NCBI RefSeq assembly: GCF_037943105.1 | Contig: NZ_CP149803.1 | Coordinates: 1,860,001 to 1,924,000, forward strand | Origin: Pseudomonas sp. TMP9 | GTDB lineage: Bacteria; Pseudomonadota; Gammaproteobacteria; Pseudomonadales; Pseudomonadaceae | DNA: 64,000 nt | Direction: 5' to 3' | Part shown: piece after piece, positions 20,252 through 40,596 of the stretch | How positions within the stretch are numbered: the first letter of the stretch is position 1 | Layout: every line of letters starts with the position of its first letter | Made by a program: the position numbers and the translations under genes | Notes under the pieces: model-generated | Told to the model about the DNA's origin: nothing | Databases searched by the model: none | Seen by the model: the letters and a program-made list of their open reading frames with translations, nothing else

Positions 20252-20270
20252 CTTTTAATCAGGTTTAAAG
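20252..20270 (-). promoter_or_regulatory. Late motif copy A
   Basis: CTTTTAATCAGGTTTAAAG, an interrupted palindrome shared with three other late-operon heads (27058, 33273, 40578). It lies upstream of the gpW-to-methyltransferase block on the - strand and also just before the + strand DUF6338 cassette. Proposed activator or promoter site. Confidence 0.65.
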
Positions 20271-20309
20271 ATGGGCAAGATCACTCCAGTAAACAAACAA
20301 GGAATCATC

Positions 20310-20924
20310 ATGGACATCTGGGAAGTCGACAAACTGGTGATTTTTATAGCCTTCGTGGTGCCGGGCTTTATCAGTCTGAAAACCTATTCGCTGTTACAAC
20401 CAGCCGACAATAAAGACACATCGCAGCAGTTGGTCGATGCCGTCGCATATAGCTCTGTTAACTACGCGCTGCTGCTAGGTCCCATTTACGCTGTCGAGTA
20501 CAGCGGCCTTCAAACCATCAGCCCAACACTTTACGTACTGTTCTATGTGATGGTGCTGCTGGTCGCTCCTGTCCTTTGGGCTTGGGCCTTTCTGCGACTG
20601 CGCAAAACCCAGCTTCTTCAACGATCAGTAGCCCATCCGACAGGTAGGCCATGGGACTTTGTTTTCAGTCAGCGTATGCACTACTGGGTGATTGCTACGC
20701 TGATTGACGGACGTCAGATTTCAGGAAGGTTTGGGGGGAAATCGTTTGCCTCAAGCAGCCCATCGCCGGAGCAAATATATCTAGAAGAAGCATGGATCAT
20801 GAGTGAAGGCGGAGGGTTTGAGCGCGCCCGAACTGATTCAGCAGGGATCATTATTCTCGCCAAAGAAATAGCAACCCTTGAGCTGTTCCACGTCAGAGAT
20901 GCACAACAAGGAGAGGAAGCATGA
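20310..20924 (+). CDS. DUF6338-family membrane protein (phage cargo)
   Basis: A 204-residue protein with three hydrophobic segments in the first 110 residues (FIAFVVPGFISL; ALLLGPIYAVE; LYVLFYVMVLLVAPVLWAWAF) and a soluble C-terminal domain. The start at 20310 follows AAGGA; an upstream ATG at 20271 abuts the late motif and is less likely. It is on the opposite strand to the surrounding tail genes, the classic moron arrangement. Function unknown; superinfection exclusion is only a guess. Confidence 0.7.
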   Translation: MDIWEVDKLVIFIAFVVPGFISLKTYSLLQPADNKDTSQQLVDAVAYSSVNYALLLGPIYAVEYSGLQTISPTLYVLFYVMVLLVAPVLWAWAFLRLRKTQLLQRSVAHPTGRPWDFVFSQRMHYWVIATLIDGRQISGRFGGKSFASSSPSPEQIYLEEAWIMSEGGGFERARTDSAGIIILAKEIATLELFHVRDAQQGEEA

Positions 20925-21058
20925 GCGATAAACGTCAAGGCAACCGTACTGAAGAGCGTGGTTACCAGCCATCCCGGAATGATCGAAGCCCCGCGCAAGG
21001 CGGATACACCCCACCGGCGAGCGAAAGAGCACCCGCACCGCCACCCAAAAATCCATGA
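20921..21058 (+). CDS. Small Pro-rich partner of DUF6338, 45 aa
   Basis: A 45-residue polar, probably disordered protein (start MSDKRQGNRTEERGY, end APAPPPKNP). Its ATGA overlaps the DUF6338 stop and a GGAG element precedes it, so translation is coupled. Confidence 0.55.
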   Translation: MSDKRQGNRTEERGYQPSRNDRSPAQGGYTPPASERAPAPPPKNP

Positions 21059-21083
21059 CCCTAGATTTAGTAGAGACTCTCTA

Positions 21084-21212
21084 ATGGCAGACGATCCCAA
21101 AAAAGGCTCAACCCGAGTGGTCTTTAAGGATGGGTGGCAACCAACACTGCAGCAAAAGCCTCAACCTGTTAGTGCAAGTAAACCTGTCGCACCACCGCCG
21201 AAAAAGCCTTAA
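21084..21212 (+). CDS. Small Pro-rich protein, 42 aa
   Basis: A 42-residue protein (MADDPKKGSTRVVFKDGW..., ending PVAPPPKKP). Its C-terminus echoes that of the preceding 45-residue protein, suggesting a shared binding partner or duplication. It is followed at once by a strong hairpin, closing the + strand cassette. Confidence 0.5.
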   Translation: MADDPKKGSTRVVFKDGWQPTLQQKPQPVSASKPVAPPPKKP

Positions 21213-21214
21213 AG

Positions 21215-21240
21215 AAAGCCCCGCATGCGGGGCTTTTTAA
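21215..21240. terminator. Terminator closing the DUF6338 cassette
   Basis: A perfect palindrome of 22 bp (AAAGCCCCGCA and its complement) is followed by TT on the + side. It overlaps the gpV stop and so may separate convergent transcripts. Confidence 0.8.
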
Positions 21241-21818
21241 TGGCTGTGATGGTTCGAATTTCCGCCCTGATCCAGCACCTTGCCCTGAGTCTGGATATCC
21301 CCAACAGCCTGCAGGCCTGCGGCCAGAGTGACCGCCCCAGCAACCTGCAGGCTACCGGTCAAGATTGTTTCAGGCGTATCCAAGGTAACCCTGGGCGCTA
21401 CTACCAGCACTGGCTGACCGGCCTCAACAGTAACCGTGGTGGCGGTCTTGATCAGTGCGCTCCCTGCGCAGTCAGCTACCAGCGCATGGCTGGCTCGGTC
21501 ATAGGTTAGGGTCGTACCGTCGTTGAAGCGCAGGTAGTGGGTGTTCTCGTCCGTTACGGGTGGCGGTTCGGCGGTCGAATAGATCCCGCCCAGCACCACC
21601 CCGTTGACGCCGTCGCGCTGAAGCAGCACAGCCACCTGCTCGCCGATCTCCGGCATCAGTGGGCGGCTCTTGGTGGCCTTGGTGTGCCGTTGTGGCACCT
21701 TTAGCCACCAGCTCTCTAAGCCCTCGAACTCCTCCAGCCGCACCTTCACCCTGCAGCTGATGTAGTCCACCGAGCTGACCAATCCGAACTGCAGGCCGTC
21801 CAGCGTTTCACTGCTCAT
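21237..21818 (-). CDS. P2 gpV-like baseplate spike protein
   Basis: A 193-residue baseplate assembly protein: OB-fold N-terminal half (SSVDYISCRVKVRLEEFEG), then a repetitive beta-helix-like region. The extreme C-terminus QGGNSNHHSH carries the HxH element that binds iron at the tip of the P2 spike, the part that pierces the outer membrane. Confidence 0.88.
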   Translation of the reverse strand: MSSETLDGLQFGLVSSVDYISCRVKVRLEEFEGLESWWLKVPQRHTKATKSRPLMPEIGEQVAVLLQRDGVNGVVLGGIYSTAEPPPVTDENTHYLRFNDGTTLTYDRASHALVADCAGSALIKTATTVTVEAGQPVLVVAPRVTLDTPETILTGSLQVAGAVTLAAGLQAVGDIQTQGKVLDQGGNSNHHSH

Positions 21819-22921
21819 GCGGTTGCCTCGGCGTTGGTCTGGCTGGATTCACCGGTCAGATATGGCATCGCCGGTACCGGCGCGGCCGTGACTCGGCGGA
21901 TCTCGATATCGGCCGTGGTGCCGCTGCTGCGGCGTTTGTTGTGGCGCGCTTGGTTGATCAGATAGTCACCGGCCATACGCCCCCAAGTGGCATCCAGTGT
22001 CACCACTGCGCCAGCCACCAGGCGACGGTCTGCAGGCAGGGTCAGGCTGCCACCGGCACGCTCGTCATTGGCCTCACCGAGGGCCGCATCAGCCTGGGCT
22101 TGGGCGCTGGCGGCGTCCGGGGCGCGCTGGTTAATGCGCAGTTCGTCGGCGCTGGTCTCCATGCCCACCTGGCTATCCGGGGCGCGGGTGTCCTGCGCCT
22201 GGCTGCTGATAGTTTTCTGGGTGTCCGGGTCGTGGTGGGTGTTCTTGGCTGTGCGGAACACATCCTTGATCTTGTCTTTAATGTCGTAACGGCTGCACTC
22301 CTTGCGGCTGATGGTGCGTACCGGTGCCCCATCGCGTAGGCCAGCCATGGCCGTGAAGATCAGCTTGTTCTCACGCAGTTTGACGGCATAGCCATACTGC
22401 CGGCCCACGCGGGTGATAAAAGCCAAGTCACGCTCCTGGAACTGGGTGATGCGGTCGATCCGCAGAGGCTTGATCTCGCCAACCAGCTCGAATTTATTGC
22501 GCTTGGCCAACTGTGCAGCGATCTCGGCAAGCGTGGTGCTCTCATAGGCATAGCCCTTGCGGGTGCGCACGCCCTTGCTGATACCCGCCGCCAAACCGCG
22601 CATGACCACCGTCGAGGGCGGCCCACTGACGTTGATCTCATCCACCTCAAAGCTGCCGCAGTTCAATGGGGCCTGCCCTGGATAGGTCATGCTCAAGGTC
22701 AGCGCGTCACCCTTGATTGGGTACCAACTGGTGAGCCACTTGTCGTCGGTGTCTTCCAGCTCGATGCTGATCTCGTCAGACTGGCCGCTGAGGTAATCCG
22801 TCCAAGTCACGCCCAGCACGTAGGGGGCCAGATCGGCTGTCAGGTCGCGGCCCTGATAGCCAATACGCCACACGGTAGGCTCGGCCGTGTCACGACCAGG
22901 GATATCGATCACTTGAACCAC
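21815..22921 (-). CDS. P2 gpD-like tail hub protein
   Basis: A 368-residue hub/late-control D family protein. The N-terminal VWRIGYQGRDLTADLAPYV and the internal FQERDLAFITRVGRQYGYAV are typical. It forms the hub above the spike. It overlaps gpV and gpX by 4-13 bp. Confidence 0.87.
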   Translation of the reverse strand: MVQVIDIPGRDTAEPTVWRIGYQGRDLTADLAPYVLGVTWTDYLSGQSDEISIELEDTDDKWLTSWYPIKGDALTLSMTYPGQAPLNCGSFEVDEINVSGPPSTVVMRGLAAGISKGVRTRKGYAYESTTLAEIAAQLAKRNKFELVGEIKPLRIDRITQFQERDLAFITRVGRQYGYAVKLRENKLIFTAMAGLRDGAPVRTISRKECSRYDIKDKIKDVFRTAKNTHHDPDTQKTISSQAQDTRAPDSQVGMETSADELRINQRAPDAASAQAQADAALGEANDERAGGSLTLPADRRLVAGAVVTLDATWGRMAGDYLINQARHNKRRSSGTTADIEIRRVTAAPVPAMPYLTGESSQTNAEATA

Positions 22922-23124
22922 GGCGGCAGATCCTCGCTGCTGGTAACGACATCGAGCACGGGAATGCGCAAGGTCAGCCCAGAGGTAAGTGAGCGGGTTA
23001 TTGGCACCTGCGGGTTGGCACGGACAATCGGCTCATAGCGCATGGCATCGCCGTAATAGATGAAGGCCAGCTGATCCCAACGCTCCCCCTCAACGGTGGT
23101 GTGGGTTAGATATTCGGCAGGCAC
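22909..23124 (-). CDS. P2 gpX-like tail protein
   Basis: A 71-residue LysM-like tail protein (HTTVEGERWDQLAFIYYGDA, then NPQVP and LRIPV), the normal size for gpX. It lies between the gpU-like and gpD genes as in P2. Confidence 0.85.
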   Translation of the reverse strand: MPAEYLTHTTVEGERWDQLAFIYYGDAMRYEPIVRANPQVPITRSLTSGLTLRIPVLDVVTSSEDLPPWFK

Positions 23125-23125
23125 G

Positions 23126-24187
23126 TCAGGCTCTCCTGGTAATCACATTGACGGCCAGACTGGCCAAGCGAGTAGAGCTGGCATCCAAACGGCTCACGGC
23201 TAACTGCATTTGACTGGACGCGTAGTCAACTTTGCCCACCACGCTCTCAACGGACACAGGACTAAAGGCAGCGACCGCGCGCTGCACGTCACCAGCTGCA
23301 TCAACGCCCAGCTTCAACAAGTCGCTACCACCCGCCAGCAAACTGACCGCTGAGCTTTGCAGGCCATCCAAGGGCATCCCCTGGCTGATCCGACCGAGTA
23401 GCTGCGGAGCCTGATCGAGCAGCGCCAGTGGGTTATTGCGAAGGCTCTGAACCACTTCCACCGCCTGGCGCACATCACTGGCCACATTGTTGCCCATGGT
23501 CACAAGGTCAGCGCCACTGGCTAGCATCTCGGCTGCCGCACTCTGCAACCCCTGGAATGGAGCCAACGCTTGCCCAGCCAGCCCAAGCAAACGCGGAGCC
23601 TGGCTCAGCATGGCAAGTGGGTTATCACGAAGGTTTTTTACAAAACTCAAGGCCTCCACCCCGGCCTGCAGGTAGTTGGCAGCGGTTTTAGCAAGGCCCA
23701 ACACTTTTTGCGTGGGTGTAACCAGCGCAGGCGTTGCCCCGTCAATGCGGGCCAGCGGGTTGGCGGCTAGGTTGGACACCAGCGCCCGAGGCTTGGGCAA
23801 CGGCTTGGTGTATTTACCGGAGTACTCCAGCAGGTTGATGCTCACCGTTGCGGAAACCAGCCGCCCTTCGGCATCGGTCTTGCGGGTGGTCACCGACACC
23901 TCAGTCAGCAGGTAGATCCCGCGATAGTCACCCGAGCCCAGCACATACGGCAGCGGCTCATGGGCACTCTTCGCCGCCTTGAGGCGACGGATCTGCAGCT
24001 CGGGGTCGACCAGCATCGAGTGCAGGGTCAGCTCCAGCGTCAGTTCGTCCAGGCTGTCGCCCACCCATTCCGCACGTGGCTTGCCCTGAATCAGCGCATG
24101 CTGGGCATAGTCCGCGGCTGAACGCTCATCTTGCCGGCCAGGGTGATACTTCACTTCAAATTCGATATCGCCGAGTACTGCCCACAT
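23126..24187 (-). CDS. P2 gpU-like tail terminator protein with long repeat extension
   Basis: A 353-residue protein whose first 130 residues match gpU (MWAVLGDIEFEVKYHPGRQD... LEYSGKYT). The remaining 220 residues are an extension with two similar units of about 63 residues, each starting LR(D/N)NPLA(M/L)L and ending in a valine-rich helix, plus a partial first unit. Classic gpU is only about 160 residues, so the extension is a lineage-specific elaboration. Confidence 0.75.
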   Translation of the reverse strand: MWAVLGDIEFEVKYHPGRQDERSAADYAQHALIQGKPRAEWVGDSLDELTLELTLHSMLVDPELQIRRLKAAKSAHEPLPYVLGSGDYRGIYLLTEVSVTTRKTDAEGRLVSATVSINLLEYSGKYTKPLPKPRALVSNLAANPLARIDGATPALVTPTQKVLGLAKTAANYLQAGVEALSFVKNLRDNPLAMLSQAPRLLGLAGQALAPFQGLQSAAAEMLASGADLVTMGNNVASDVRQAVEVVQSLRNNPLALLDQAPQLLGRISQGMPLDGLQSSAVSLLAGGSDLLKLGVDAAGDVQRAVAAFSPVSVESVVGKVDYASSQMQLAVSRLDASSTRLASLAVNVITRRA

Positions 24188-26577
24188 CAGAAGGCCCTCC
24201 GCTGTTGATCCGCCAAGACTTCACGCATCAATTTCTCCAGGTCATTACGCGAAAGCTGCAGGGCTTGCTGCACTGCCTCCTGGGTACCAGGGCCACCGCC
24301 CTGGACGGTGATTTGTGGGGAGTAGTGGATGGTGACGCCACCACCGGATTGACCTGCCAATGCGGCCGAGCCTGCACTGCGCGCCAAGTTCGCCACGCGG
24401 CTTGCCGTTGCTGCTGGCCCATCAGCTGCAGCAAGTTGCGGGGTGGCAAAGGTGATGGCCGTCGCTGCAGCCATGCCCAAGGCGGCACGCTTGACCAGAC
24501 CCTGCTTGGCAGTGATGCCAATCGCTGCGCCTTCCGAGACGTTGGCCCCAGCTGCCATGAAGACGCGGCTTGGACTTTTGATCCCCAACTTGTCTTTGAA
24601 CCACCCGGTAACATCATCACCTAGGCCAACAACGGCATCCTTGGCGGCCCCGGCCATGCTCTTGATACCGTTGACCAAACCAGTAACCAGCATGCTGCCA
24701 AAGTCGGTGAACTTGCCCGGTAGCTCGATCCCGAAGTAGTTCATCACGCCGCTGAATGCCCGGTAGAACATGCCCAGCGGACTGAAGTTAACCAGCAGCC
24801 CGAGAATGCCCGTAAGACCACCGCTGAAACCGGCTTTTATCTCCGTCCACAACCCACCGAAGAAGCTCTTGATCGGCTCCCAGTAGCGGTAAATCAGGTA
24901 AGCACCGAGCGCGATACCAGTGATCATCAGGCCGATGGGGTTCATCAAAAGTGCGCGGCCCAGCCAGAGTACCGCCGTGCGTGCCATGCCAAGGGCAGGC
25001 GCAAGCCGCATCGCCCCACCACGCAACAGACTAAGCCCGGTGATGAACGGCCCCAGCCGGCCACCCAGCAATAGCATCGCGCGCATCATGGTGAACTTGC
25101 CGGATAGCAGCGAGATCGCGATGCCCACGCCGTTCAGGCCAGAAGCCCCGAGACTCAGCCCATACGACAGGCCGACGACGCCCAGCTTCAGCGCAACGGC
25201 TCCGGCCACCAGCTTGATCACGCCGCTGACCAGTTCCGGGTTCTCTTTGGCCCAAGTGGCAAAGCCAGACACTACCGGACGTAGTGAACTGACTAGATCA
25301 TTCAATCCCGGCAGCACAGCGGAGCCGAGATTGATCCCCAGCTCAGTCATGCCGTTTTTCAGCAGCTGCAAGTTGTTTGCAGTGGTAGATGCTCGCGCCT
25401 GGAATTCCTTCTCCATCGAGCCATCGTAGTCCGAGGCCTTGTTTACCAAGGCCAGGGACTTGGCATAGGTCTCCATCGAACCCGCCAGTACCGCTACATC
25501 ATCGGCGTACTCCAAGCCAAACAGGTCGACCAGAACGCCCATTTGATCGGCTTTCGGGACTTTGCTGATGGTGTTGAGGAAGCTGGTCAGTGTCCCCTGA
25601 GCGTCTTTGCCGATAGAGGCTTTCAAGCCTTCAGCCGTCATGCCCATTTCCTGCAGGGCACGCTGGAATTTCTTCGGTTGCTTGTCGGCGGTGGCCAGCT
25701 TCGCCAGCATGCCGTTGATGGCGGTGCCGGCTACTTCTGGCGGCTTGCCAAGGCTGACAAAAGCGGTGACCAGAGCTGCTGCCTGGGTCTCGACCAGACC
25801 AAACTGCTTGGCCACACCACCCACCCGGTTCAAGCCTTGAACGATGTCGCGCGCCTTGGCCGGTGAGGAGTTGGACAGGTGGTTGATCGCATCGCCGATA
25901 CGGCCGATCTGCGCGATAGGGATCTTGTACACGTTGGCCAGCTTGGCCATCGAGTCACCGGCTTCCTCGGCCGACATGTCGAAGGCCGTGGACATCTTCG
26001 CCACAGTCTCGGTGAACTTGGGAATATCAGCTGCAGCCACACCCAGTTGGCCACCACTGGCGGCAATGGCAGCCAGATCCGAAGCGGCCAAAGGCAGTGT
26101 TCGGGTCATGCGCAGCAACTCGTCACCGAGCTTGACGATGCCATCCGGCGTATCGAAGTCGACCACCTTCTTCACATCGGCCATGGCCGACTCATAGTCG
26201 ATGGCCAGCTTCACTGGCAGCGCCGCACTGGCACCGATTGCCACGGTTTCTAACAAGCCAGAGCGCAGCTCGGCGCGCTGACTGCGCAACTGGTCGCGGC
26301 GCGCCAGGCGAGCGGTCAGTTGTTCCTGCTTGCGCCGCACCGTGTCGAGGGTCTGCCCAAGGCGCACGTAGTCTCGGTTGAGCGCGGCGACGGTACTGGG
26401 TGCCAACGTGCCAAGGTTGCGCTTGATGGAAGCGCCCAGCTCGGCATGCTGCCGGGTCAGCTTGCCGGCCGTATCACCCAGGCCCATCAGGGTACGGCGC
26501 ACACCACCCAACAGGGGCATAACCCCACGGGCGGATGCGCCGATCTCAAGACCTACTCTAAGGCTACGGTTGCTCAC
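24187..26577 (-). CDS. Tail tape measure protein
   Basis: A 796-residue tape measure (P2 gpT type), which sets tail length and is ejected on infection. It has an N-terminal coiled coil (about 30-100), a TP901-type core (DYESAMADVKKVVDFDTP), several hydrophobic segments (about 450-560), and a late KDKLGIKSPSRVF motif. It is the longest late gene, preceded by the E/E' chaperones as expected. Confidence 0.9.
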   Translation of the reverse strand: MSNRSLRVGLEIGASARGVMPLLGGVRRTLMGLGDTAGKLTRQHAELGASIKRNLGTLAPSTVAALNRDYVRLGQTLDTVRRKQEQLTARLARRDQLRSQRAELRSGLLETVAIGASAALPVKLAIDYESAMADVKKVVDFDTPDGIVKLGDELLRMTRTLPLAASDLAAIAASGGQLGVAAADIPKFTETVAKMSTAFDMSAEEAGDSMAKLANVYKIPIAQIGRIGDAINHLSNSSPAKARDIVQGLNRVGGVAKQFGLVETQAAALVTAFVSLGKPPEVAGTAINGMLAKLATADKQPKKFQRALQEMGMTAEGLKASIGKDAQGTLTSFLNTISKVPKADQMGVLVDLFGLEYADDVAVLAGSMETYAKSLALVNKASDYDGSMEKEFQARASTTANNLQLLKNGMTELGINLGSAVLPGLNDLVSSLRPVVSGFATWAKENPELVSGVIKLVAGAVALKLGVVGLSYGLSLGASGLNGVGIAISLLSGKFTMMRAMLLLGGRLGPFITGLSLLRGGAMRLAPALGMARTAVLWLGRALLMNPIGLMITGIALGAYLIYRYWEPIKSFFGGLWTEIKAGFSGGLTGILGLLVNFSPLGMFYRAFSGVMNYFGIELPGKFTDFGSMLVTGLVNGIKSMAGAAKDAVVGLGDDVTGWFKDKLGIKSPSRVFMAAGANVSEGAAIGITAKQGLVKRAALGMAAATAITFATPQLAAADGPAATASRVANLARSAGSAALAGQSGGGVTIHYSPQITVQGGGPGTQEAVQQALQLSRNDLEKLMREVLADQQRRAF

Positions 26578-26978: not shown

Positions 26979-27057
26979 GCTTTATGCTCCAGGTTGATCA
27001 ATGAGATCGGTTGCTCTGTACAAGAGTCCTGAGCATCGCGCCTAAGCGTGGCGCTGC

Positions 27058-27076
27058 CTTTTAATCTGATTTAAAG
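27058..27076 (-). promoter_or_regulatory. Late motif copy B
   Basis: CTTTTAATCTGATTTAAAG, 80 bp upstream of gpE on the - strand. On the + side it is followed within 33 bp by a small cargo gene. It matches copies A, C and D at all but a few central positions. Confidence 0.65.
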
Positions 27077-32085: not shown

Positions 32086-33246
32086 TTAGTGGTTGATGAG
32101 CTGGCGCACGGCCGACTCGTAGGGGATGTTCTTATCCACGGCCAGTTGCTGTGCACGGGCATGCAGGGCAAGGCGGTCGGGGTCGGTGTTCTTCTCGGCG
32201 AACTCCAGATCAGCGGCCGGCACAGCGCCACCACGGCGAGCACCACTGGCCTGCTCGGCGAAGTCGATCTGTTGCGGCAGGTCACCGAAGATGGCCTTGA
32301 GGCCGGCAGACACCGGCTGACGGTCATCACCTTCACCAAACTCCAGCGGTGCATCACCGTCTTCGGCGAAGTCCAGAGCGGCGATCAGTGCGGCGGTGTG
32401 TTTAGGCAGCAACTTGCCCGTGCCCACCAGTTCCTCCGCGAACGCCACGTTGGCGGCATGGGTGGTGTCCTTGCGGGACTTGAGCTGTTGATCCTGGTGC
32501 AGTTGCACCTGGTTCTGCAGACGCAGGTTTTCAGCCTGGATAGCGGCGATTTCTTCGGGCGTCACAGTGCTTTCCTCTTGGGTGGATGGCTCGGTGGTTG
32601 CGGCCGTGGTGGTGGTTGGTTCGGAAAAGGAGGGACGCGGCTCGTCTTCACGGCGTGCGACTTCGTCCAGGGATTTGATTTGCCAGTCGGGGATGACCTG
32701 GTCAGCGACCTCCAAGCCACGGTCGGAGATCAGCCAGTCGCGCATGCGCCGCCAAAGGCTGGCACCCACTTCGTGGCCGTAGTCTGAGAACTCGACGACA
32801 CCTTCCTCGCCCTCTGCAAGATCGACAGAGCGCAGACCTTTCACTGCAGGTGGCTGAGCACCGAGAAAGCCGACATGGCGCAGGTAGTAAACGCCTGGCA
32901 CTGGGTTGCTCGGCGAGTCAGGGTGATAGAAGGAAGCGGAGATCTTCTTGTAGCGCTTGCTGGCCACCAGCTCGGCGAAGGCCGGATCAATTTCGTGCGG
33001 CACGGCCTCCAGACCGTCAGCACAACTGGCCAGTGACTTGACCCAGCCACCGGCCGGGGCGTCGTGCTTGGGGTGACCAAACACCAGTGGCGCTTCGTGC
33101 AAGGCTGGGTCGTAGACGCGCACCGTTGCGGCCAGGTCGGATTCACTGAAATTGAGGCTCGCACCGCTCATAGCGACGTGCTTACCGGGCTTGAAGATAT
33201 GGATTGGCTTCATGGGCTGTGCGCTTGGGTGGTAGTACATGCGCAC
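32086..33246 (-). CDS. Mu gpI-like prohead protease/scaffold
   Basis: A 386-residue Mu protease I family protein. The N-terminal half is the protease-like part (VYDPALHEAPLVFGHPKHDA, PVPGVYYLRHVGFLGAQPPA). The C-terminal part has a coiled coil (IAAIQAENLRLQNQVQLHQ) that serves as scaffold, comparable to Mu I/Z. The start is uncertain among GTG 33246, ATG 33240 and ATG 33213. It is the first gene after late motif C. Confidence 0.85.
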   Translation of the reverse strand: MRMYYHPSAQPMKPIHIFKPGKHVAMSGASLNFSESDLAATVRVYDPALHEAPLVFGHPKHDAPAGGWVKSLASCADGLEAVPHEIDPAFAELVASKRYKKISASFYHPDSPSNPVPGVYYLRHVGFLGAQPPAVKGLRSVDLAEGEEGVVEFSDYGHEVGASLWRRMRDWLISDRGLEVADQVIPDWQIKSLDEVARREDEPRPSFSEPTTTTAATTEPSTQEESTVTPEEIAAIQAENLRLQNQVQLHQDQQLKSRKDTTHAANVAFAEELVGTGKLLPKHTAALIAALDFAEDGDAPLEFGEGDDRQPVSAGLKAIFGDLPQQIDFAEQASGARRGGAVPAADLEFAEKNTDPDRLALHARAQQLAVDKNIPYESAVRQLINH

Positions 33247-33446
33247 AGCCTGGCCTGTGACCCGGCCACAGACTTTTAATCGGGTTTAAAGAGTTTTCTG
33301 GGGGATTCGCGATGCGCTGCTGGATTTGCATCCGAGAGCTAGGGTGGGGACGGGGCAATACGGCTTTATAAAGCCTTTACAGCGATTCTATGAGGTGTGG
33401 GGCGATGAACCGGAGCGCATACCCCCGCAGAACGCAGCAGAAGGCC
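33247..33446. other. Boundary region between head-assembly blocks
   Basis: This 200-bp gap carries late motif C. On its + side is an open frame of about 48 codons with a coherent-looking sequence (LDLHPRARVGTGQYGF...) but no good start and a run into gpG in antisense. It may be a decayed + strand cargo gene like those after motifs A and B. Confidence 0.4.
33273..33291 (-). promoter_or_regulatory. Late motif copy C
   Basis: CTTTTAATCGGGTTTAAAG, 27 bp upstream of the protease/scaffold gene on the - strand. This is the position of the Mu PI late promoter relative to gene I. Confidence 0.65.
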
Positions 33447-33923: not shown

Positions 33924-33924
33924 T

Positions 33925-34761
33925 TCAAACCTCCTGCAGGCCAGCGCTGGCCTGCTTGCGTTTCAATGCCTCAGCCAGCCCGGTACCTGGTGCATGGTTG
34001 AAGCCTGGGTCGGTACGGAACATCACTGGCTTACCGGCTGCATTGGTGGTGCGCACACCAGTCACCTGCGCTGTGCGGATCTCACCTGTGCGCTTGTCCA
34101 CGCCGATCTCCACTGTTTCGGTTTGCATGCGGCCGGAACTGCTCTCCGCCTGGAGTCCCTTGCGCTGGAGCGCAGCACCGGACAAAGCAGTTACCCGGCA
34201 ACGGCAGTTGAAGCCGTTGGGCGGGTAGATCGCCGACCACACCGGATCGTCGTGGCGGTACACCTTGCCACTCAGGGCGCTGTGGCTGGGCCGGGTGCGG
34301 CCGTCGAGGATGGCCACGTAGCGCCAGTACGGGTGGCTGTCGCTGCTGTCTTCCATGCTGGCTTTGCGCCCGGCCATGTAGGCGCTCTGCAGATTAGTCT
34401 GGTAGATGGTCTTGAGCCGGCGTGGGCTGCCCAACTGCACCAGTTCGGCGTTGCCCGCACCGTCGACGATCACCTGTTTGCCCCACCAGCCCTGAGTTTC
34501 CAGCACAGGCTGCAGCTGCTCGATGAACTGCGCGAGGGTTTGCCCATCCTGCAAGGCGGTTTCCAGGGCGGCGCGGATGTCCGAGAGCAGATCGAGGCGC
34601 ATCGCTTTGGCCACAGTGAACGCTTGGTCATGCGCTTGATCGAGCATCTCTTGCCAGTTCCAGGTGATGGCGTAGTCCTTGGCCTTCAGGTAGGCGATGG
34701 CGTTCTCTGGCTCTAGGCCAAAGATCGCCTGCAGGTCGGCTGGTGTCGGTGCCTTGGCCAT
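33925..34761 (-). CDS. Mu gpF-like minor head protein
   Basis: A 278-residue SPP1 gp7/MuF-type minor capsid protein. The C-terminal domain signature is clear: AILDGRTRPSHSALSGKVY followed by YPPNGFNCRCRV. It joins the portal in the prohead. It overlaps the portal gene by 1 bp. Confidence 0.88.
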   Translation of the reverse strand: MAKAPTPADLQAIFGLEPENAIAYLKAKDYAITWNWQEMLDQAHDQAFTVAKAMRLDLLSDIRAALETALQDGQTLAQFIEQLQPVLETQGWWGKQVIVDGAGNAELVQLGSPRRLKTIYQTNLQSAYMAGRKASMEDSSDSHPYWRYVAILDGRTRPSHSALSGKVYRHDDPVWSAIYPPNGFNCRCRVTALSGAALQRKGLQAESSSGRMQTETVEIGVDKRTGEIRTAQVTGVRTTNAAGKPVMFRTDPGFNHAPGTGLAEALKRKQASAGLQEV

Positions 34762-36257
34762 CAGTCCTCCCGATCCGCGCTGGCAGTCAACTGGCCCCAG
34801 GTACCGGCGATGAACAGCAGGCGGGTCAGGGTCTGCTGCAGGGCCTGGTCATCCATCAATGGGTAGGCCTCGGCCAGCAGGCCCAGAGCCTCGGTCTCCG
34901 AGCGACCGCGCAGCAGCGCCTCGATCACCGGAGCGATGGCCTGCTGAGCCTGCTCCTGGAGCAGCTCGGCCGGCAGGTTGTCGATTACCTGGTCGACCGC
35001 GACCTGATCCAAGATCGGCCGCAGGGTCGGCTCAGCAAAGGCCGGATCGGGTTCGACAGCAGGCGCCTCAACGATGTCACCCTCTTCCAGGTTGTACATG
35101 CGCTTCCAGTAGGCCGGGGTGAACATCACGCCGGCATCGGTGAGGTTCTTGTCGCGCTCGGCCAGCGTCTTGTCGATCTCCTCTTGTTCCCACAGCTCAT
35201 ACACGGGGGCAGCGACGTTCTCCCCGAAGTTGAGGTCGACCACCAGGCGGATGGCGGCATTGAGGGTGGCGGCAACTATGCTCTTGTCGCCATCGCGGAT
35301 GTCCTTGGTAACTTCCAGACCAGCCGTGGCGCTGGCGCGGTTGCTCTCGGCCTCTGTGGTTTGATTCTGGCCAAGCAGGCCCACGTTGATCTCGCTACGG
35401 CAGTACACCAGCAACTCGCGAAATACATCGGCACTGGCGCTCTTGCCTGCCGCTTCGAGTATCTCGACACTGGAGTCATCCGGGATCGCTGCCACGGCGT
35501 CCTGCACCATGGTCTCCAGGCTGTCGAGCAGCAGGTCGGTCTCGTAGGTGGCCGCGCCACGCGGGTGCTTGCCAATCACCCAGGGCGTGCCGTACTTCTC
35601 GGTGAACTGCACCCAAAACTTGAGCCCGCCTTTCATGAACACCACAGGCCAGAAGCACATGGACAGGTCAGCGAAGCCGTAGGGGTTGTTGTAGGTCGCA
35701 TCCTGGCGCGCCACCACAAAGCGCTGCGGATCGCACAGTTCGCCCTGCAGGCCGGCATCACGCGCACGGAAGCGCAGATGGTTGTCCTGGTCGTAGAGGA
35801 ACCACTCGGCCGGTTTGCCCAGCAGATCCTCGGGCACCAGGTGCAAGCCCAGCGGACGCCACATCAGCTCGATTGGCTGGAAGCCGAACAACGGCGCATC
35901 GAGCATCTCGCGGATGATGCGGTCGAGATCGAGGTCGGCCAGCCAGTCGCTGATGAAGCGCTCGACCCGCACCGGGGCATTGCCGCGCTTAAGGTCGCGC
36001 TCCAGAGCGAGCACTGCAGACTTGCGACGACGGATATTCCCACCTACCAGGGCCTGACTGCGCAGATCGCGGTAGACGGTGATGTCCTTGCCCTGGGCCT
36101 TGAGGATCGGGTCAGGGTTGGGCAGGTACATACCCAAGGCCTGGGAGTCAAAGCTGCGACTGCGGCTGGCGATATGGTCGGTGAGCCCTTTGCCTGATGC
36201 AGGCTCACTGAAACGGACGAACTCGGTGGGGCTAACCCACAGACCTTTGCTGCTCAT
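34761..36257 (-). CDS. Portal protein (DUF935, Mu gp29-like)
   Basis: A 498-residue DUF935 portal. Family segments include SFDSQALGMYLPNPDPILKA, KRGNAPVRVERFISDWLADL and TPWVIGKHPRGAATYE. It forms the dodecameric DNA channel. The downstream minor head and upstream terminase order is exactly Mu-like. Confidence 0.92.
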   Translation of the reverse strand: MSSKGLWVSPTEFVRFSEPASGKGLTDHIASRSRSFDSQALGMYLPNPDPILKAQGKDITVYRDLRSQALVGGNIRRRKSAVLALERDLKRGNAPVRVERFISDWLADLDLDRIIREMLDAPLFGFQPIELMWRPLGLHLVPEDLLGKPAEWFLYDQDNHLRFRARDAGLQGELCDPQRFVVARQDATYNNPYGFADLSMCFWPVVFMKGGLKFWVQFTEKYGTPWVIGKHPRGAATYETDLLLDSLETMVQDAVAAIPDDSSVEILEAAGKSASADVFRELLVYCRSEINVGLLGQNQTTEAESNRASATAGLEVTKDIRDGDKSIVAATLNAAIRLVVDLNFGENVAAPVYELWEQEEIDKTLAERDKNLTDAGVMFTPAYWKRMYNLEEGDIVEAPAVEPDPAFAEPTLRPILDQVAVDQVIDNLPAELLQEQAQQAIAPVIEALLRGRSETEALGLLAEAYPLMDDQALQQTLTRLLFIAGTWGQLTASADRED

Positions 36258-37582
36258 GCGTACCCCTGGGTAATACGTACGCCCTGACGTGGGCGACGGG
36301 ATTTGACGGTGACTGGGCCATTAGGGCCGTCGCTGGCGTTGAGGGCGAGGAAGCACGCCCAGGTGCGGTCGGCGTGGCCCGCTGAGTCGGACTCGGCAAT
36401 GAAGCGCGGGGCTCCAGTTGGGCCAGCGACTTTCTGTAATTTGTGCAGGTCGTTGCGCAGTTCGGTGTCGCCCAAGGGAATGCGGATCTGCATGTCCTGG
36501 AACACTTCTTTGCCACGTGTGGCCATGGTCAGTTTGCTGGCGGTACCGAAGATCACACCCTCGACACGCGTGGAGCCGTGACTGCGTTTGGCGTCTTCCA
36601 CCGGCTTCTCGCCCATGCCGGTCTGATCCATGCAGCAGCGCAGTACGCGGTAGCGGGCGAACACGTCATCGAGCAGTGCGTCCTGTTCGTGGAACGAAGC
36701 CCGCTTGCGGGTGATGATCTCCCGCGTCCAGTACACGTCACCGATCTGCTCAAGTACCCAGATAACGAACAGGTCATTGCGCGCGCCGATATCGACGCCG
36801 ACAAAGCACGGCCCACCGGTATACAGCTCGGGGCGTCCGGCCTGGTCATGCTCGACATCGTTGATCAGCTCGTAGCTCAGCCAGGAGCTGGCTTCGTCCA
36901 GCCACTTCAGCTCGAACTCCTGGGCCCAGGCATCCTCATCATTGAGAGCCGCGCGCATCTCGGCGATGTTGCGTGGCAGGCCATCGGCCACTGCTCGGTG
37001 GATATCGACCACATGACGCGACCAGATATCGGCGAGTTTCTTGTCGGTCATCAGCTCGTAGAACTTGTTGCCCTTGCCGTTGGGCGTGCTGGTGATGCGC
37101 AGCTTCCAGCCGTTGGAGATCACCGGGAACAGCGCCGTCCAGATCTTGCGGCTGTCCTGGTGAAAGGCGAATTCATCCAGGAACACGTTGGCACTGAAAC
37201 CACGGGCCGTGTCGGGGTTGGCTGGAAGCGCGGTGATGCGTGAACCACCCGGCAGCACCACATCCAACATGGTGAAACGCTCACCGTTGCTACCTTTGAA
37301 CTCGCCCTCGATCTCCTGCACCGCCATGTTGTAGGCGCGACAGTGCTTCTTCACGCCTTCCTCCATGGCCTCCTTGGCCTGGCGCTCGCCTCGGGACAGG
37401 ATCACCCAGCGAGTGCGGCCACCGCGCGACTCGACATCGAAACAGTCATCGACGATCTCCAGCGTGCTGGTGAAGGTTTTGCCGGTTTGGCGGGCGAACA
37501 TGGCGATCTTGAAGCGCTCACGATCCAGCAGCCATTGCTTCTGGTAGTTGAATAACTGGATAGCAGGCTGCTTATCGCTCAT
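36254..37582 (-). CDS. Terminase large subunit (Mu gp28-like)
   Basis: A 442-residue packaging motor. The ATPase P-loop region is MFARQTGKTFTSTLEI; the Walker B-like segment is ANVFLDEFAF. The nuclease part begins near GPCFVGVDIGARNDL, with acidic residues suited to metal binding. Mu-type packaging is headful, with host DNA at the ends. Confidence 0.92.
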   Translation of the reverse strand: MSDKQPAIQLFNYQKQWLLDRERFKIAMFARQTGKTFTSTLEIVDDCFDVESRGGRTRWVILSRGERQAKEAMEEGVKKHCRAYNMAVQEIEGEFKGSNGERFTMLDVVLPGGSRITALPANPDTARGFSANVFLDEFAFHQDSRKIWTALFPVISNGWKLRITSTPNGKGNKFYELMTDKKLADIWSRHVVDIHRAVADGLPRNIAEMRAALNDEDAWAQEFELKWLDEASSWLSYELINDVEHDQAGRPELYTGGPCFVGVDIGARNDLFVIWVLEQIGDVYWTREIITRKRASFHEQDALLDDVFARYRVLRCCMDQTGMGEKPVEDAKRSHGSTRVEGVIFGTASKLTMATRGKEVFQDMQIRIPLGDTELRNDLHKLQKVAGPTGAPRFIAESDSAGHADRTWACFLALNASDGPNGPVTVKSRRPRQGVRITQGYA

Positions 37583-38124
37583 AGCCCGTAGACCTCCTGA
37601 CGGATGCGCTTGAGTGTTTCTGGGCTCAAGGCTCCGGTCTTGCCCAGGTCGTCGAGCTTGCTTTGCTGTTCGCGTATCAGCCGCTCTTCTGTGGCCTTCT
37701 CGACAGCCAGGCGCTCCTTCACGCTCATGGTGCGGGCTTCCATGGTGGCCTTGGCGGCGCGGGCCAGGGCCGAGACTTCGGCGATGGTCACCTCGTCCTT
37801 TTCGTGGGCACCCATGGCAGCCTGGTAGGTCAGGGTCGAGATGGCCTCGACCAGCAGCACACCGGTCTTGTCGGAAGCGTCCTCGCCAAAGGCACCGACA
37901 AACGCTTCAGCCATCTCACGCTGGGTGCGGACTTTTTCTGTCAGCTCGTCGAAACCCATCTTGAAGCGGCCCAGCGCACTGCGGCTTGGGGCTTTCTCAT
38001 TGGGGAAGCGAGATTGGATATCGGACAGCATGTCATCCAGCGTCATGCGGTCTTCGCGCAACAGCTTCTGGATGTACGCCTTGACCATCGGTGGCAGGCG
38101 GGTGATGGATGACTTGCCAGCCAT
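37579..38124 (-). CDS. Terminase small subunit-like DUF3486 protein (Mu gp27-like)
   Basis: A 181-residue DUF3486 protein: SSITRLPPMVKAYIQKLLRE, MTLDDMLSDIQSRFP, then a long C-terminal coiled coil. It probably recognises DNA for packaging. It overlaps the large subunit by 4 bp. Confidence 0.83.
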   Translation of the reverse strand: MAGKSSITRLPPMVKAYIQKLLREDRMTLDDMLSDIQSRFPNEKAPSRSALGRFKMGFDELTEKVRTQREMAEAFVGAFGEDASDKTGVLLVEAISTLTYQAAMGAHEKDEVTIAEVSALARAAKATMEARTMSVKERLAVEKATEERLIREQQSKLDDLGKTGALSPETLKRIRQEVYGL

Positions 38125-38126
38125 GG

Positions 38127-38420
38127 TCAGGCCCCCGGACGCTTGATGCCAGGCACGCGGGCGCGGCCGGCTGCAATGTCCTGGCCGCGCTCAGTGAGGG
38201 TGGCCACCAACACCGGGCCAACATCCTCAAGCGTCAAGGCACTTTGCTCAGCCAGCCAGCTCAACTCGGTTTTGACCTGGTCGCGGCTGAGTGTATGACC
38301 GTAGCTGTCTAGGGCCATGGTCAGTACCGAGCTGTTGGCGCGGTACGCGGTCATTTCAACCAGCAGGCGCAGGATCACCAGGCGGATATCCTGGCGCAGG
38401 TATTCGGCATATTGGCTCAT
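38127..38420 (-). CDS. Mu gp26-like winged-helix protein
   Basis: A 97-residue protein (YLRQDIRLVILRLLVEMTAY..., VLVATLTERGQDIAAGR) with a winged-helix look. It is conserved at this place, between gp25- and gp27-like genes, in Mu relatives. Function unknown. Confidence 0.7.
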   Translation of the reverse strand: MSQYAEYLRQDIRLVILRLLVEMTAYRANSSVLTMALDSYGHTLSRDQVKTELSWLAEQSALTLEDVGPVLVATLTERGQDIAAGRARVPGIKRPGA

Positions 38421-38728
38421 GCTCGCGACTTCTCCTGAAGCAGGTAGGCATTGATGTTCTCGACGGAGCGCTGCACGCCACCAATCGTATTTTTCATTCC
38501 GCCCAGGTCACTCCGCACAGCCTCTAAGCTAACCAGCAACCCTGTGATTGAGGTTTGGCTTGGCAGATGGCGCGCCTGTTCTTCCAGGGCGACGATGCGC
38601 GTGCGCAGTTCCAGCAGCTCTTGGGTACTGGCTGCCTGTCGGCTCATAAACCAGGAGTACACACCGATGGCAGCGGTGATCAGCCACTGCATGGCACCGA
38701 AGCCGAAGTTGAGTTGTTCAAAGTTCAT
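38417..38728 (-). CDS. DUF2730 membrane-anchored coiled-coil protein (Mu gp25-like)
   Basis: A 103-residue protein with one N-terminal membrane segment (GAMQWLITAAIGVYSWFMS) and a long coiled coil. Start set at 38728 (MNFEQLNFGFG), overlapping the zinc-finger gene by 4 bp. Confidence 0.72.
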   Translation of the reverse strand: MNFEQLNFGFGAMQWLITAAIGVYSWFMSRQAASTQELLELRTRIVALEEQARHLPSQTSITGLLVSLEAVRSDLGGMKNTIGGVQRSVENINAYLLQEKSRA

Positions 38729-38943
38729 CGCAAACCTCGCTTCTGCAGCTGTTCCAATGTGCTTTTGCATTCGATGCAATGTTCGGTACCGGGCTCGGCC
38801 TGGCGTCGATTTTCGGGAATGGCATCGCCGCATTCCTCACAGCGGTAAGCGGATACACCCGAGCGACGCTGCAGGCCGGACTGGTGAGCAAGCAGCGCGG
38901 CTTCGGTGAAGTCGTTGTCTTGCGCGAGGTCAGCTACATCCAT
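38725..38943 (-). CDS. DksA/TraR-type C4 zinc-finger protein
   Basis: A 72-residue protein ending in a CxxC...CxxC finger (YRCEECGDAIP, EHCIECKSTLEQLQ), the phage TraR/YbiI kind (Mu gp24-like). TraR proteins bind RNA polymerase and mimic DksA-ppGpp, so it could tune host or late transcription. A RelA/SpoT gene also occurs in this prophage. Confidence 0.78.
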   Translation of the reverse strand: MDVADLAQDNDFTEAALLAHQSGLQRRSGVSAYRCEECGDAIPENRRQAEPGTEHCIECKSTLEQLQKRGLR

Positions 38944-39251
38944 GTGGTGTCAGTCCTTTTCCTGGAGATCGAGCAGAGCATTGAGCTGGGCGTGTAGAGC
39001 GCGGGCCCATATTCCATAGTCTTTGGCGTGGGCCAGGATGTCGGCTGGGGTGACGCCGCTTTCCAATAGTTCGGCGTCAGTGCCGGGGGCAGCCCAGGCC
39101 GTTTGCGCAGAGTGGATGGCAGTGGTGCCTGTTCCTGGGGCGGGCACACCGAGGGCGAGGTTGTAGTCGCGCAACCAACCAGCAGTGAAAACGCAATGAG
39201 GGATAGCAACAGGCTCGGCAGCAGGTGCCGGCCGGTAGAGGGTGGTGACAT
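38934..39251 (-). CDS. Rz1-like outer-membrane spanin lipoprotein, embedded in Rz
   Basis: A 105-residue frame inside the Rz gene in another reading frame. It has a lipoprotein signal (LLPSLLLSLIAFSLLVGC, lipobox LVGC) and a Pro-rich mature part (PPQEQAPLP), the hallmarks of Rz1. Start set at 39251. Confidence 0.75.
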   Translation of the reverse strand: MSPPSTGRHLLPSLLLSLIAFSLLVGCATTTSPSVCPPQEQAPLPSTLRKRPGLPPALTPNYWKAASPQPTSWPTPKTMEYGPALYTPSSMLCSISRKRTDTTWM

Positions 39252-39597
39252 GCGGGATGCGCTCCTCGATCTGTTTGGCATTACCTGCGATCAGATCCTG
39301 CGTGGCCAGCAGCAGGGTCTCGGTTTCGTTGGCACGGGTTACCTGCTGCTGATAGCGCAGCAGGTTGTCCTCAGCGGCCTGTCTGGCCTGGTCGGAAAAA
39401 CGGCGCTCTAGGCGCTCTAAATTTGCGGTGCCCTGCGCATCGGCGTAGCGGTAGCCGAAGCCATAGGCGATGCCAGCACCTGCTGCGCCGCTCACAAGGC
39501 AGGCCAGCAGGGCTAGGGTTAAACCGGACGGCAGCGGCGTGCTCAGGCGCTCAAGCATGGCGGCGTGCTCGGCGCTTGTTACGGGCTTTCCGGGCAT
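38950..39597 (-). CDS. Rz-like inner-membrane spanin
   Basis: A 215-residue protein with one N-terminal membrane segment (LTLALLACLVSGAAGAGIAY) and a periplasmic coiled coil (residues about 60-120). With the nested Rz1 it fuses inner and outer membranes in the last step of lysis. ATG at 39597 or 39615. Confidence 0.77.
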   Translation of the reverse strand: MPGKPVTSAEHAAMLERLSTPLPSGLTLALLACLVSGAAGAGIAYGFGYRYADAQGTANLERLERRFSDQARQAAEDNLLRYQQQVTRANETETLLLATQDLIAGNAKQIEERIPHVTTLYRPAPAAEPVAIPHCVFTAGWLRDYNLALGVPAPGTGTTAIHSAQTAWAAPGTDAELLESGVTPADILAHAKDYGIWARALHAQLNALLDLQEKD

Positions 39598-39781
39598 GGC
39601 GGCGCGCGGCGGCAATGCCTGTCTTACCAGGGCGACCCATGGGGATCACACGCGGCGATATCCAGCTACCCGCCGAGCTACCCGCAGAGCAGGTGTCGAC
39701 CCAACGGCATGCATCCACCAAGAGGCCAAGCACCGACAGTGCCAACCCGCCGAGGCGACGGCCAAGCATGCGTGCGCTCAT
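39551..39781 (-). CDS. Small basic membrane protein in lysis cassette
   Basis: A 76-residue protein: one hydrophobic segment (LGGLALSVLGLLVDACRWV), then the conserved-looking ISPRVIPMGRPGKTG and a very basic tail (RRHARKARNKRRARRHA). It overlaps the holin by 4 bp and Rz by 47 bp. It may assist holin or spanin; no family function recalled. Confidence 0.55.
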   Translation of the reverse strand: MSARMLGRRLGGLALSVLGLLVDACRWVDTCSAGSSAGSWISPRVIPMGRPGKTGIAAARRHARKARNKRRARRHA

Positions 39782-39996
39782 GGCGACACCTCTGTCTTTG
39801 GCCCCTGCTTGATCAGGCGGGCGACAAACAACAAGCTGGCCAGTAGGCTGTTGAGTACGGCGTAAGCCGTGGGCGACAGCTGTACCTGCCAGATCGGCAA
39901 CAGCGTGACCTGCAGGAAACCAAACAAGGCGATCAACGCCGCCAGTTGCACGCTGTAGAAGGTATGGCAACGACGCCACTCGGCGATCAGCTTCAT
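39778..39996 (-). CDS. Probable holin
   Basis: A 72-residue protein with two membrane segments (VQLAALIALFGFLQVTLL and YAVLNSLLASLLFVARLI) and a charged tail, located between endolysin and spanins. Confidence 0.65.
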   Translation of the reverse strand: MKLIAEWRRCHTFYSVQLAALIALFGFLQVTLLPIWQVQLSPTAYAVLNSLLASLLFVARLIKQGPKTEVSP

Positions 39997-40493
39997 ACCT
40001 CCACCTGCAGCTGGCCGTGCTGCGCACCCGCCACGATGCCGGCCAAAGCCAAGCCATCAGCGATAATGGGCTCGCCATACCAAGCGCCACCAGGCAGTGG
40101 GCCGAGGCCGTTTTCGTGGCGGATGATGGCCAGTACCAGGGCGCGCATGGTGTCGTAGCGGTAAACGTCTACGGCCTCATCATTCGGACCAATGCTCAGG
40201 GCACTGGCAACGGCCTTGGCGTAGGCGTCGGTGTTGTTCTCGCTGGCTGGTGCCCAGCGCTCAATGAACTCGCGCACGCTGTCGATGCGGCTGCCATCTT
40301 TGGCGCGGCGTTTGTCTTGATAAGTGATCAGCACCCGCGCAATAGCACGGACGCCCCAGCGCGGGCCGTTGAACACGACAAAGCGCGCGTCGCCACTCTG
40401 GTCAGTGGCCTGGCCCTGCCAACGCACGCCGGCTACGCGGTCGATATTGCCAGGGTTAAAGTTGCGGATACCGCGTGGGGTTTCAGGTCGCAT
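39993..40493 (-). CDS. Probable endolysin (lysozyme-like, structural P5 type)
   Basis: A 166-residue protein starting MRPETPRGIRNFNPGNIDRV, the RGIRNxNPGNI start shared by phage lysozyme-like proteins often annotated as structural protein P5. It has no signal peptide, fitting holin-dependent release. It is the first gene downstream of late motif D and two leader hairpins. Confidence 0.7.
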   Translation of the reverse strand: MRPETPRGIRNFNPGNIDRVAGVRWQGQATDQSGDARFVVFNGPRWGVRAIARVLITYQDKRRAKDGSRIDSVREFIERWAPASENNTDAYAKAVASALSIGPNDEAVDVYRYDTMRALVLAIIRHENGLGPLPGGAWYGEPIIADGLALAGIVAGAQHGQLQVEV

Positions 40494-40510
40494 AGCGCTT
40501 CCTGCTGCTG

Positions 40511-40566
40511 GGCGCTCAGGAAGACTGAGCGCCAGAAACGAACACGCCGCCATAATCGGCGGCGTG
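40511..40566 (-). other. Two stem-loops in the lysis-block leader
   Basis: Perfect stems GGCGCTCA/TGAGCGCC (40511-40533) and CACGCCGCC/GGCGGCGTG (40543-40566) lie between late motif D and the endolysin start. They may terminate RelA/NA37 transcription or structure the late leader. Confidence 0.6.
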
Positions 40567-40577
40567 CTGCAGGAGAG

Positions 40578-40596
40578 CTTTTAATTGGGTTTAAAG
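40578..40596 (-). promoter_or_regulatory. Late motif copy D
   Basis: CTTTTAATTGGGTTTAAAG, 85 bp upstream of the endolysin gene. This corresponds to the Mu Plys position heading the lysis/packaging block. Confidence 0.65.

Follow-up and report, generated by a model that had tools for sequence, protein, structure and literature searches.

The closest described relatives of the system considered here are the promoters Pm, Plys, PI, PP and Pmom of phage Mu and the late genes of phage T4. In Mu, the Mor dyad is centred at −43.5, and Pm has neither a −35 hexamer nor a TGn element, according to PMC4287176. In T4, as described in PMC2988022, the ribosome sites of the late genes e, soc, I-TevI and segB, as well as that of mobE in Aeh1, are hidden in read-through RNA, and the late promoter is placed so that the late transcript lacks a part needed for the ribosome-site hairpin. 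A third relative is the B3-like Pseudomonas phage Fc02, for which published RNA-seq (PMC9936078) describes three late clusters that are transcribed in sequence after induction. In this work, we describe the late region of a Mu-like prophage in Pseudomonas sp. TMP9, where four copies of a 19-base-pair motif stand ahead of four late gene blocks. The region lies in a stretch of 64,000 nucleotides (contig NZ_CP149803.1, positions 1,860,001 to 1,924,000), referred to as the window; coordinates are positions within it.

The prophage shares with the Mu promoters the family of the activator, a dyad located upstream, a −10 hexamer without a −35 hexamer, and the placement of sites at the heads of late blocks. 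It differs from Mu in carrying one activator gene rather than two, in the recognition helix of the activator, and in having gpE and gpW at two of the block heads. The original prediction had likened three of the positions to Mu late promoters. The endolysin and protease positions agree with Mu lys and I, whereas the third parallel fails, since the gpE and gpW sites are unlike P: gene P of Mu is annotated downstream of the genes for tape measure and DNA circularisation, but in the prophage one of the two sites stands ahead of gpE, which comes before the tape measure, and the other ahead of gpW. The position of the P promoter of Mu is, for this comparison, one that we assume.

We regard it as probable that a single Mor/C-family activator serves four tandem late promoters, each insulated from the transcripts of the upstream block either by a transcription start inside a hairpin stem (start-in-stem) or by a leaderless start. 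The sites, the −10 hexamer, the spacing, the complementarity, the ATG position and the co-occurrence with Mor are established by sequence statistics; Mor binding, the +1 positions and the effect on translation are what we infer from them. In the proposed mechanism, the four motifs would be binding sites of the one Mor/C-family activator of the prophage, one ahead of each late promoter, and this activator, made from the early operon, would act at all four promoters at once by recruiting host RNA polymerase or licensing it, with no middle step. In read-through RNA, the sequence upstream of +1 would fold the ribosome site or the start into a hairpin (gpE, protease and the outer stem of endolysin), and read-through into endolysin would also meet a terminator-like hairpin. 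RNA born at the promoter would lack the 5' arm, so that its leader would stay open. At gpW, a message beginning at the ATG itself would provide comparable insulation. The start-in-stem principle itself is already known from T4 late genes; the T4 cases described in that account are late genes on long early or middle messages, whereas here a temperate Mu-like phage appears to have such a device or a leaderless start at the head of every late block, combined with a Mor-type activator. A literature search of partial coverage, which is no proof of novelty, found no description of the start-in-stem layout at Mu-like late block heads with a leaderless gpW.

Late-block sites and the −10 hexamer

The sites and the predicted −10 hexamers are as follows; offsets are counted in nucleotides (nt) downstream of the motif.

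40578..40596, minus strand: putative activator-site copy, endolysin/packaging block (motif scans and position model; predicted centre −42)
40552..40557, minus strand: predicted −10 hexamer GATTAT, endolysin (offsets 21-26; predicted +1 at 40545)
33273..33291, minus strand: putative activator-site copy, protease/head block (motif scans and position model)
33247..33252, minus strand: predicted −10 hexamer CAGGCT, protease (predicted +1 at 33240, the A of an in-frame ATG)
27058..27076, minus strand: putative activator-site copy, gpE/tape-measure block (motif scans and position model)
27032..27037, minus strand: predicted −10 hexamer GATGCT, gpE (predicted +1 at 27025)
20252..20270, minus strand: putative activator-site copy, gpW/baseplate block (motif scans and position model)
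20226..20231, minus strand: predicted −10 hexamer CACCAT, gpW (A22/T26 columns)

The four exact 19-base-pair copies at 20252, 27058, 33273 and 40578, on which the original prediction was built, were all recovered. In the late direction the motif reads CTTTAAAYCNRATTAAAAG and forms a dyad or near-palindrome. With up to three mismatches, the plus-strand matches in the window are those four only, and the reverse-strand matches coincide with three of them; for dinucleotide shuffles of the window the mean is 0.05 matches at this threshold. A scan of the whole genome (one contig of 3,749,562 bases, up to two mismatches) returned the same four places and none elsewhere. On the late strand of the window, a position model that includes the −10 gives the four copies scores of 49-63 and the next best place −1.5, although the model is partly circular, all four window sites being among its 62 training sites.

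Each copy precedes one late block on the minus strand. Block 1 consists of an endolysin-family gene and, after it, the terminase, portal and neck genes; block 2 of the protease and major head genes together with the genes after them; block 3 of gpE and the tape-measure gene; and block 4 of gpW/baseplate genes. The copies are spaced by about 6-8 kilobases in the window and in G149, G151 and G129. The longest downstream open reading frames (ORFs) start 33 (gpW), 80 (gpE), 27 (protease, GTG) and 25 nt (endolysin) from the motif; the likelier start codons are at offsets 33 for gpW, 80 for gpE, 60 or in-frame 33 for protease, and 85 for endolysin. A DUF6338 gene (E 2e-43; 20271-20924, plus strand), located in the gap between late blocks, has an ATG that directly abuts the gpW motif on its far side.

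The original prediction had seen no consistent −10, a view refuted by the wider collection of sites. At least 138 sites were chosen on the 19-mer alone (genus genomes, 16, with the four of the window included; IMG/VR contigs, at least 122) and thinned to 65 non-redundant sites at 75% identity; the −10 columns played no part in the selection. Past the motif, among the matches listed, offset 22 is A in 60/65 and offset 26 is T in 59/65 of the thinned sites, with binomial tails at base frequency 0.21 of 6e-35 and 2e-33, respectively. These two spikes define a hexamer NANNNT; the second and last bases of the −10 hexamer are its two key bases for sigma-70. Six of the 65 sites do not carry both A22 and T26: two of them (both L119) fit a 21-nt spacer, and two are chance-like loci, the count of 65 including the chance-like loci L029 and L034, both without a −10. 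In the same sites, C32 (52/65), A33 (27/65) and T34 (39/65) agree with a 'CAT' start, which suggests that transcription starts at offset 33. The motif centre would then be expected at −42, near the place of the Mu Mor dyad. The layout is a near-fixed 20-nt spacer from the motif to the −10, which is a weak one, then 6 nt, then the predicted +1. The sequences at the −35 place of the four window promoters (AAGGCC, AAGGCA, AAGTCT and AAGCTC) are unlike TTGACA; by eye, these four promoters have no −35 hexamer and no TGn ahead of the −10.

Sites with a full −10 number at least 17 in the genome_contigs set; among the ten with a source listed, seven are from Pseudomonas, one is from Burkholderiaceae, and the other two (Draconibacterium and a Clostridia bin) look like chance matches. 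The counts from viral_contigs and genome_contigs are lower bounds. Under a scan rule that itself required A22/T26, four same-orientation sites were found in 10 of the 21 whole or near-whole records scanned (G149, G151, G156, G168, G129, G045, G095, G098, Komp_PAO1_1 and the window). The remaining 11, mostly with a more distant Mor or truncated, have 1-5 sites, apart from the AT-rich AFS-2018a with 11, chance hits included.

The Mor/C-family gene and its association with the motif

The candidate activator is encoded in the early region:

51872..52234, plus strand: Mor/C-family activator gene, the sole one in the genome (PF08765 (Mor), E 5e-41; after the DUF3164 and GemA genes)

The presence of a single Mor/C-family gene, noted originally in the window, extends to the whole genome, which has one PF08765 gene. 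Motif scans covered 50 records out of the 80 Mor loci retained, and Mor copies were counted in 42 of these 50 and in five named phages. Exactly one Mor gene is present in 46/46 non-Mu Mor-bearing records (42 from IMG/VR plus Komp_PAO1_1, PhiKM, AFS-2018a and KP12), and two in Mu. The two-step Mor-then-C cascade of Mu was considered and rejected for this prophage, in which there is only one Mor/C-family gene.

Among 149 genomes of the same genus as G000 (the genus genomes), the motif is present in 8/11 Mor-positive vs 8/138 Mor-negative ones (Fisher p 4e-7), and two or more sites are present in 7/11 vs 2/138. The motif is matched in 48/50 Mor records at two mismatches, a threshold that lets in chance hits. 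The single Mor gene and this co-occurrence fit best with the earlier suggestion of one Mor-type activator for all late blocks, its binding being predicted. As judged by eye, a recognition-helix pattern near S[LM][QA][WF][IV]Y is mostly common to the Mor proteins of motif-bearing phages, even at 35-44% identity, and the helix differs more in Mu C, Mu Mor and the Mor relatives of the motif-less G012, G040 and G053. In L326, a record with four sites, the helix is TLVWLY. In L355, L357, L358 and L343 a site lies 0-14 nt past the Mor-matched stretch, and in the first three of these the arm ACCCTCC can pair with the Shine-Dalgarno sequence of the next gene.

Predicted leader hairpins and leaderless starts

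The pairings in the window and its gpW start are the following:

40543..40566, minus strand: hairpin CACGCCGCC-GATTAT-GGCGGCGTG, whose loop holds the −10, followed by TTCGTTT; predicted +1 in the 3' arm (class test, fold, terminator-like scan)
40499..40575, minus strand: endolysin outer pairing of offsets 3-12 with the Shine-Dalgarno region at offsets 69-79, before ATG 40493 (class p 0.0008, site p 0.033)
33214..33251, minus strand: protease hairpin AGGCTGTGCGC / AGCGCACAGCCC; the predicted +1 lies downstream of its 5' arm, and its 3' arm directly precedes ATG 33213 (fold and class test)
26983..27037, minus strand: gpE hairpin GATGCTCAGGA / ACCTGGAGCATA, covering the Shine-Dalgarno GGAG before ATG 26978 (site p 0.02; class p 0.007 and 0.0012)
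19836..20219, minus strand: gpW (baseplate wedge gp25 family), with its ATG at the predicted +1 and no Shine-Dalgarno

For class tests, 207 sites, found with the model already including the −10, were assigned by the downstream gene (protease 54, gpE 47, gpW 46, endolysin 34, unclassified 26), filtered at a score >25, and thinned at 80% (and 70%) identity. The score filter excluded gpW sites L100 and L109 and protease sites L267, L269, L138, L369 and L375. The 26 thinned protease sites include five for which no start was found and two that start at offset 33, leaving 19 tested, among which the start of L006 (offset 47) is doubtful. Since the phage sets are related, permutation p-values serve as guides.

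In an alignment-free duplex test, each class shows complementarity between the DNA preceding the predicted +1 and the leader or the ribosome site, and cognate arms out-pair both arms swapped within the class and shuffled arms in all four classes. For the endolysin outer pairing (offsets 1-11 with the Shine-Dalgarno region, n=13), the cognate, swapped and shuffled energies are −13.7, −12.1 and −8.4 kcal/mol (p 0.0008), and for the inner one (offsets 10-20 with 27-37, n=13) they are −16.6, −14.4 and −8.6 kcal/mol (p 0.0004). The corresponding values are −10.5, −9.7 and −6.7 kcal/mol for gpE (offsets 20-32 with the start region, n=31; p 0.007 and 0.0012), −16.2, −13.9 and −7.4 kcal/mol for protease (offsets 21-33 with the leader, n=19; p 0.0004), where 19/19 beat their own shuffles, and −8.7, −7.8 and −5.3 kcal/mol for gpW (offsets 22-32 with the codons, n=28; p 0.0016). 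With thinning at 70% identity, the cognate-pairing p ranges from 0.0002 to 0.042 across classes. An earlier duplex test on whole windows gave p 0.0004 for endolysin, 0.0002 for gpE, 0.0002 for gpW and 0.14 for protease. An alignment of 16 protease leaders by MAFFT misplaced the other-host sequences, and no covariation count was taken from it. A second small inverted repeat was observed in the spacer between site and −10 (offsets 1-21; cognate p 0.0018 for protease and 0.013 for gpE, none for gpW).

In the window itself, the stems are present in the minimum-energy fold of the read-through RNA. The protease stem reaches −21.5 vs −9.1 kcal/mol when shuffled (p 0.0005), and the leader of the promoter-born protease RNA is nearly open (−4.0 kcal/mol) vs −34.0 kcal/mol in the longer read-through stretch; the gpW arm compared with shuffles gives p 0.006. 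The T4-type arm layout, with the 5' arm before the start point and the 3' arm on the ribosome site, is matched by gpE and by the endolysin outer stem, the start point being predicted. The protease pairing falls just before the ATG and involves no Shine-Dalgarno. In a partition-function comparison, read-through RNA of the gpE and protease classes shows lower accessibility than the same RNA with its upstream sequence shuffled (p 5e-4 and 7e-4). A row of leftward ORFs from 45865 to 40626 (minus strand) leads directly into the endolysin promoter, which makes the need for insulation plain there. If correct, the proposed insulation would account for the silence of the tandem late blocks, lysis genes included, during upstream transcription.

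The gpW class is arranged differently. Among 28 non-redundant sites scoring >25, 23 have the gpW ATG at offset 33 and five at offset 34, which places it at the predicted +1 or +2; the site of the window was thinned out of these 28, and its ATG is also at offset 33. Shine-Dalgarno sequences are found at 0/28 gpW starts, compared with 30/31 for gpE and 13/13 for endolysin. Most gpW late messages should thus be leaderless, as judged from these predicted 5' ends. Some relatives (L189, L369, L375 and L380) have protease starts at offset 33 or 34 as well, and the window has an in-frame ATG there. Lambda cI mRNA transcribed from PRM is leaderless. As in leaderless mRNAs, the gpW AUG coincides with the predicted 5' end or adjoins it, and there is no Shine-Dalgarno; unlike cI, gpW is a structural late gene (baseplate) with the arrangement conserved across hosts, and its 5' end is a predicted one. 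A leaderless baseplate-gene message, if real, would offer a simple system for leaderless initiation.

A comparable arrangement appears in three phages that infect other bacteria. Escherichia PhiKM, Klebsiella KP12 and Pasteurella AFS-2018a encode Mor proteins 49-50% identical to that of the window, and their block heads are holin or lys, protease, gpE and gpW, with looser sites. With anchors placed by eye, A22 and T26 at the 20-nt spacer are present in 12/12 of their promoters, PhiKM and KP12 being close relatives, so that the independent cases are fewer than 12. The gpW ATG is at offset 33 in PhiKM and KP12 and at 34 in AFS-2018a. Of their leader-bearing promoters, 7/9 fall below p 0.05 with arms 20-32 (Fisher 9e-9; 3e-7 without KP12), arms adopted after a test with the whole upstream stretch (offsets 1-32) had put only 2/9 below 0.05.

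In Fc02, Mor is about 36% identical and has a different recognition helix. A late-head motif, TTTTNGCNNCTTCCAAAA, first seen by eye, occurs exactly three times in its genome (0 expected), each time ahead of a late gene (holin, protease and tape measure). The −10 follows at 20, 21 and 20 nt, the protease fitting only with the 21-nt spacer; the predicted starts are at 11753, 20152 and 25658 of MH719189. The annotated protease ATG is at the predicted +1, and the tape-measure leader has a stem spanning the start (p 0.019). Fc02 resembles the window in having a Mor-family gene that ends the early operon, a motif common to its late heads, hairpins, the same −10 geometry and an ATG at the predicted +1 of the protease; it differs from the window in the site, the Mor helix and the number of late blocks (three, not four). 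We lean towards the broader view that a transposable-phage lineage of wide range gates its late programme twice, by one-step Mor-type activation and by efficient translation from own-promoter RNA only, the start point lying within a hairpin or on the start codon, across hosts and even after a change of activator and site. The promoter model (site, −10 and start) is a concrete and testable one for many Mu-like prophages, in which late control is otherwise argued only by analogy with Mu.

Counter-evidence and alternative explanations

Several results weigh against the combination of one activator and insulated promoters. Eight genus genomes carry the site without a Mor at E 1e-10. The low-scoring gpW sites L100 and L109 have no ATG at +1, and a hairpin with a T-run precedes a later ATG. 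In the window, the −10-proximal arm of endolysin is no better than shuffles (p 0.87), support coming from the outer stem (p 0.033) and the class. In-gene control segments are flat, except that the gpW control is marginal (p 0.04 and 0.05). The partition-function test finds the ribosome-site accessibility of the endolysin class unchanged, and the gpE and protease accessibility is not lower than with the upstream sequence of another class member (p 0.82 and 0.08). A fixed-register helix scan anchored at the start codon is mixed (gpE p 0.005, endolysin inner 0.01, gpW 0.06, protease 0.14, endolysin outer 0.62) because the distance from hairpin to start varies. A Shine-Dalgarno is present at only 1/21 protease starts, so that sequestration there would act on the start region. 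Among other phages, KP12 E (p 0.10) and AFS-2018a I (p 0.16) fail singly; the Fc02 holin leader, which folds TGCTCCCC onto the Shine-Dalgarno GGGAGCA, is borderline vs shuffles (p 0.055), and in the same phage neither the proximal arm at holin (p 0.87) nor the outer arm at the tape-measure gene (p 0.41) is better than shuffles. With the Mu −10 placed by eye, Mu lys shows no start-in-stem (p 0.89 and 0.90), and Mu I is borderline (p 0.052, at one of three candidate starts). As a separate observation, the genus genomes G005 and G020 have two motif copies each and no Mor at E 1e-10; they may hold decayed prophages or another activator.

The alternative that survives best, although we consider it unlikely, is that these are ordinary Mor/C late promoters and that most of the inverted repeats merely terminate the preceding block, overlapping the next promoter by chance and having no translational role. 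The endolysin hairpin is indeed terminator-like, and a stem with a T-run occurs in the lys and E leaders of AFS-2018a and in the gpW leaders of L100 and L109. However, in the window group the stems of gpE and protease have long loops and lack a T-run, their 3' arm lies over the ribosome site or immediately ahead of the ATG, and the cognate pairing is conserved.

Transcription might instead start upstream of the hairpins, the stems being structures in the 5' untranslated region of a normal late mRNA (stability elements or switches). The same stems would be seen in that case, and the +1 positions are predictions, but the near-fixed A22/T26 hexamer, the motif centre at −42 regardless of stem position, and the lack of a Shine-Dalgarno at the ATGs of gpW and of some protease genes, which stand at offset 33 or 34, make this quite improbable. 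Slightly less credible again is a motif acting as a repressor operator or a processivity/antitermination site with no activator role, which the original prediction had raised: the motif is near-palindromic and the Mor site is a predicted one, whereas the single orientation, the single, near-fixed 20-nt spacing from a −10 that lacks a −35 hexamer, the position upstream of the predicted transcript and outside it, and the tracking of the Mor gene all argue against such a role. Least credible of all is that the palindromes act as DNA, as a cruciform at the −10 or as sites of a second protein. In its favour, the −10 lies in the palindrome loop at several promoters; against it, the −10 is at or in an arm, outside the loop, at gpE and protease, and the arm sequences vary among the promoters of one phage.

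Compared with these alternatives, one activator with four insulated promoters remains the preferred explanation. Other features of the window were noted outside the promoters. A RelA/SpoT-domain gene and a gene for a 37-kD nucleoid-associated protein (NA37) are neighbours at 40626-42712 on the minus strand, in the interval that separates the endolysin promoter from the regulatory region, and resemble an accessory (moron) pair. A short second Mu F-like fragment (PF04233) lies at 42824-43138 on the minus strand, on the early/regulatory side and apart from the F-like gene at 33925-34761. A gene for a DNA adenine methyltransferase of the D12 class (PF02086) is located at 14782-15576 on the minus strand, near the far end of the late region. 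The only hit at the gathering score in an Rfam scan, at 12246-12488 on the plus strand, is the small RNA SrbA (RF02872, 114 bits), which falls outside the late region as read here.

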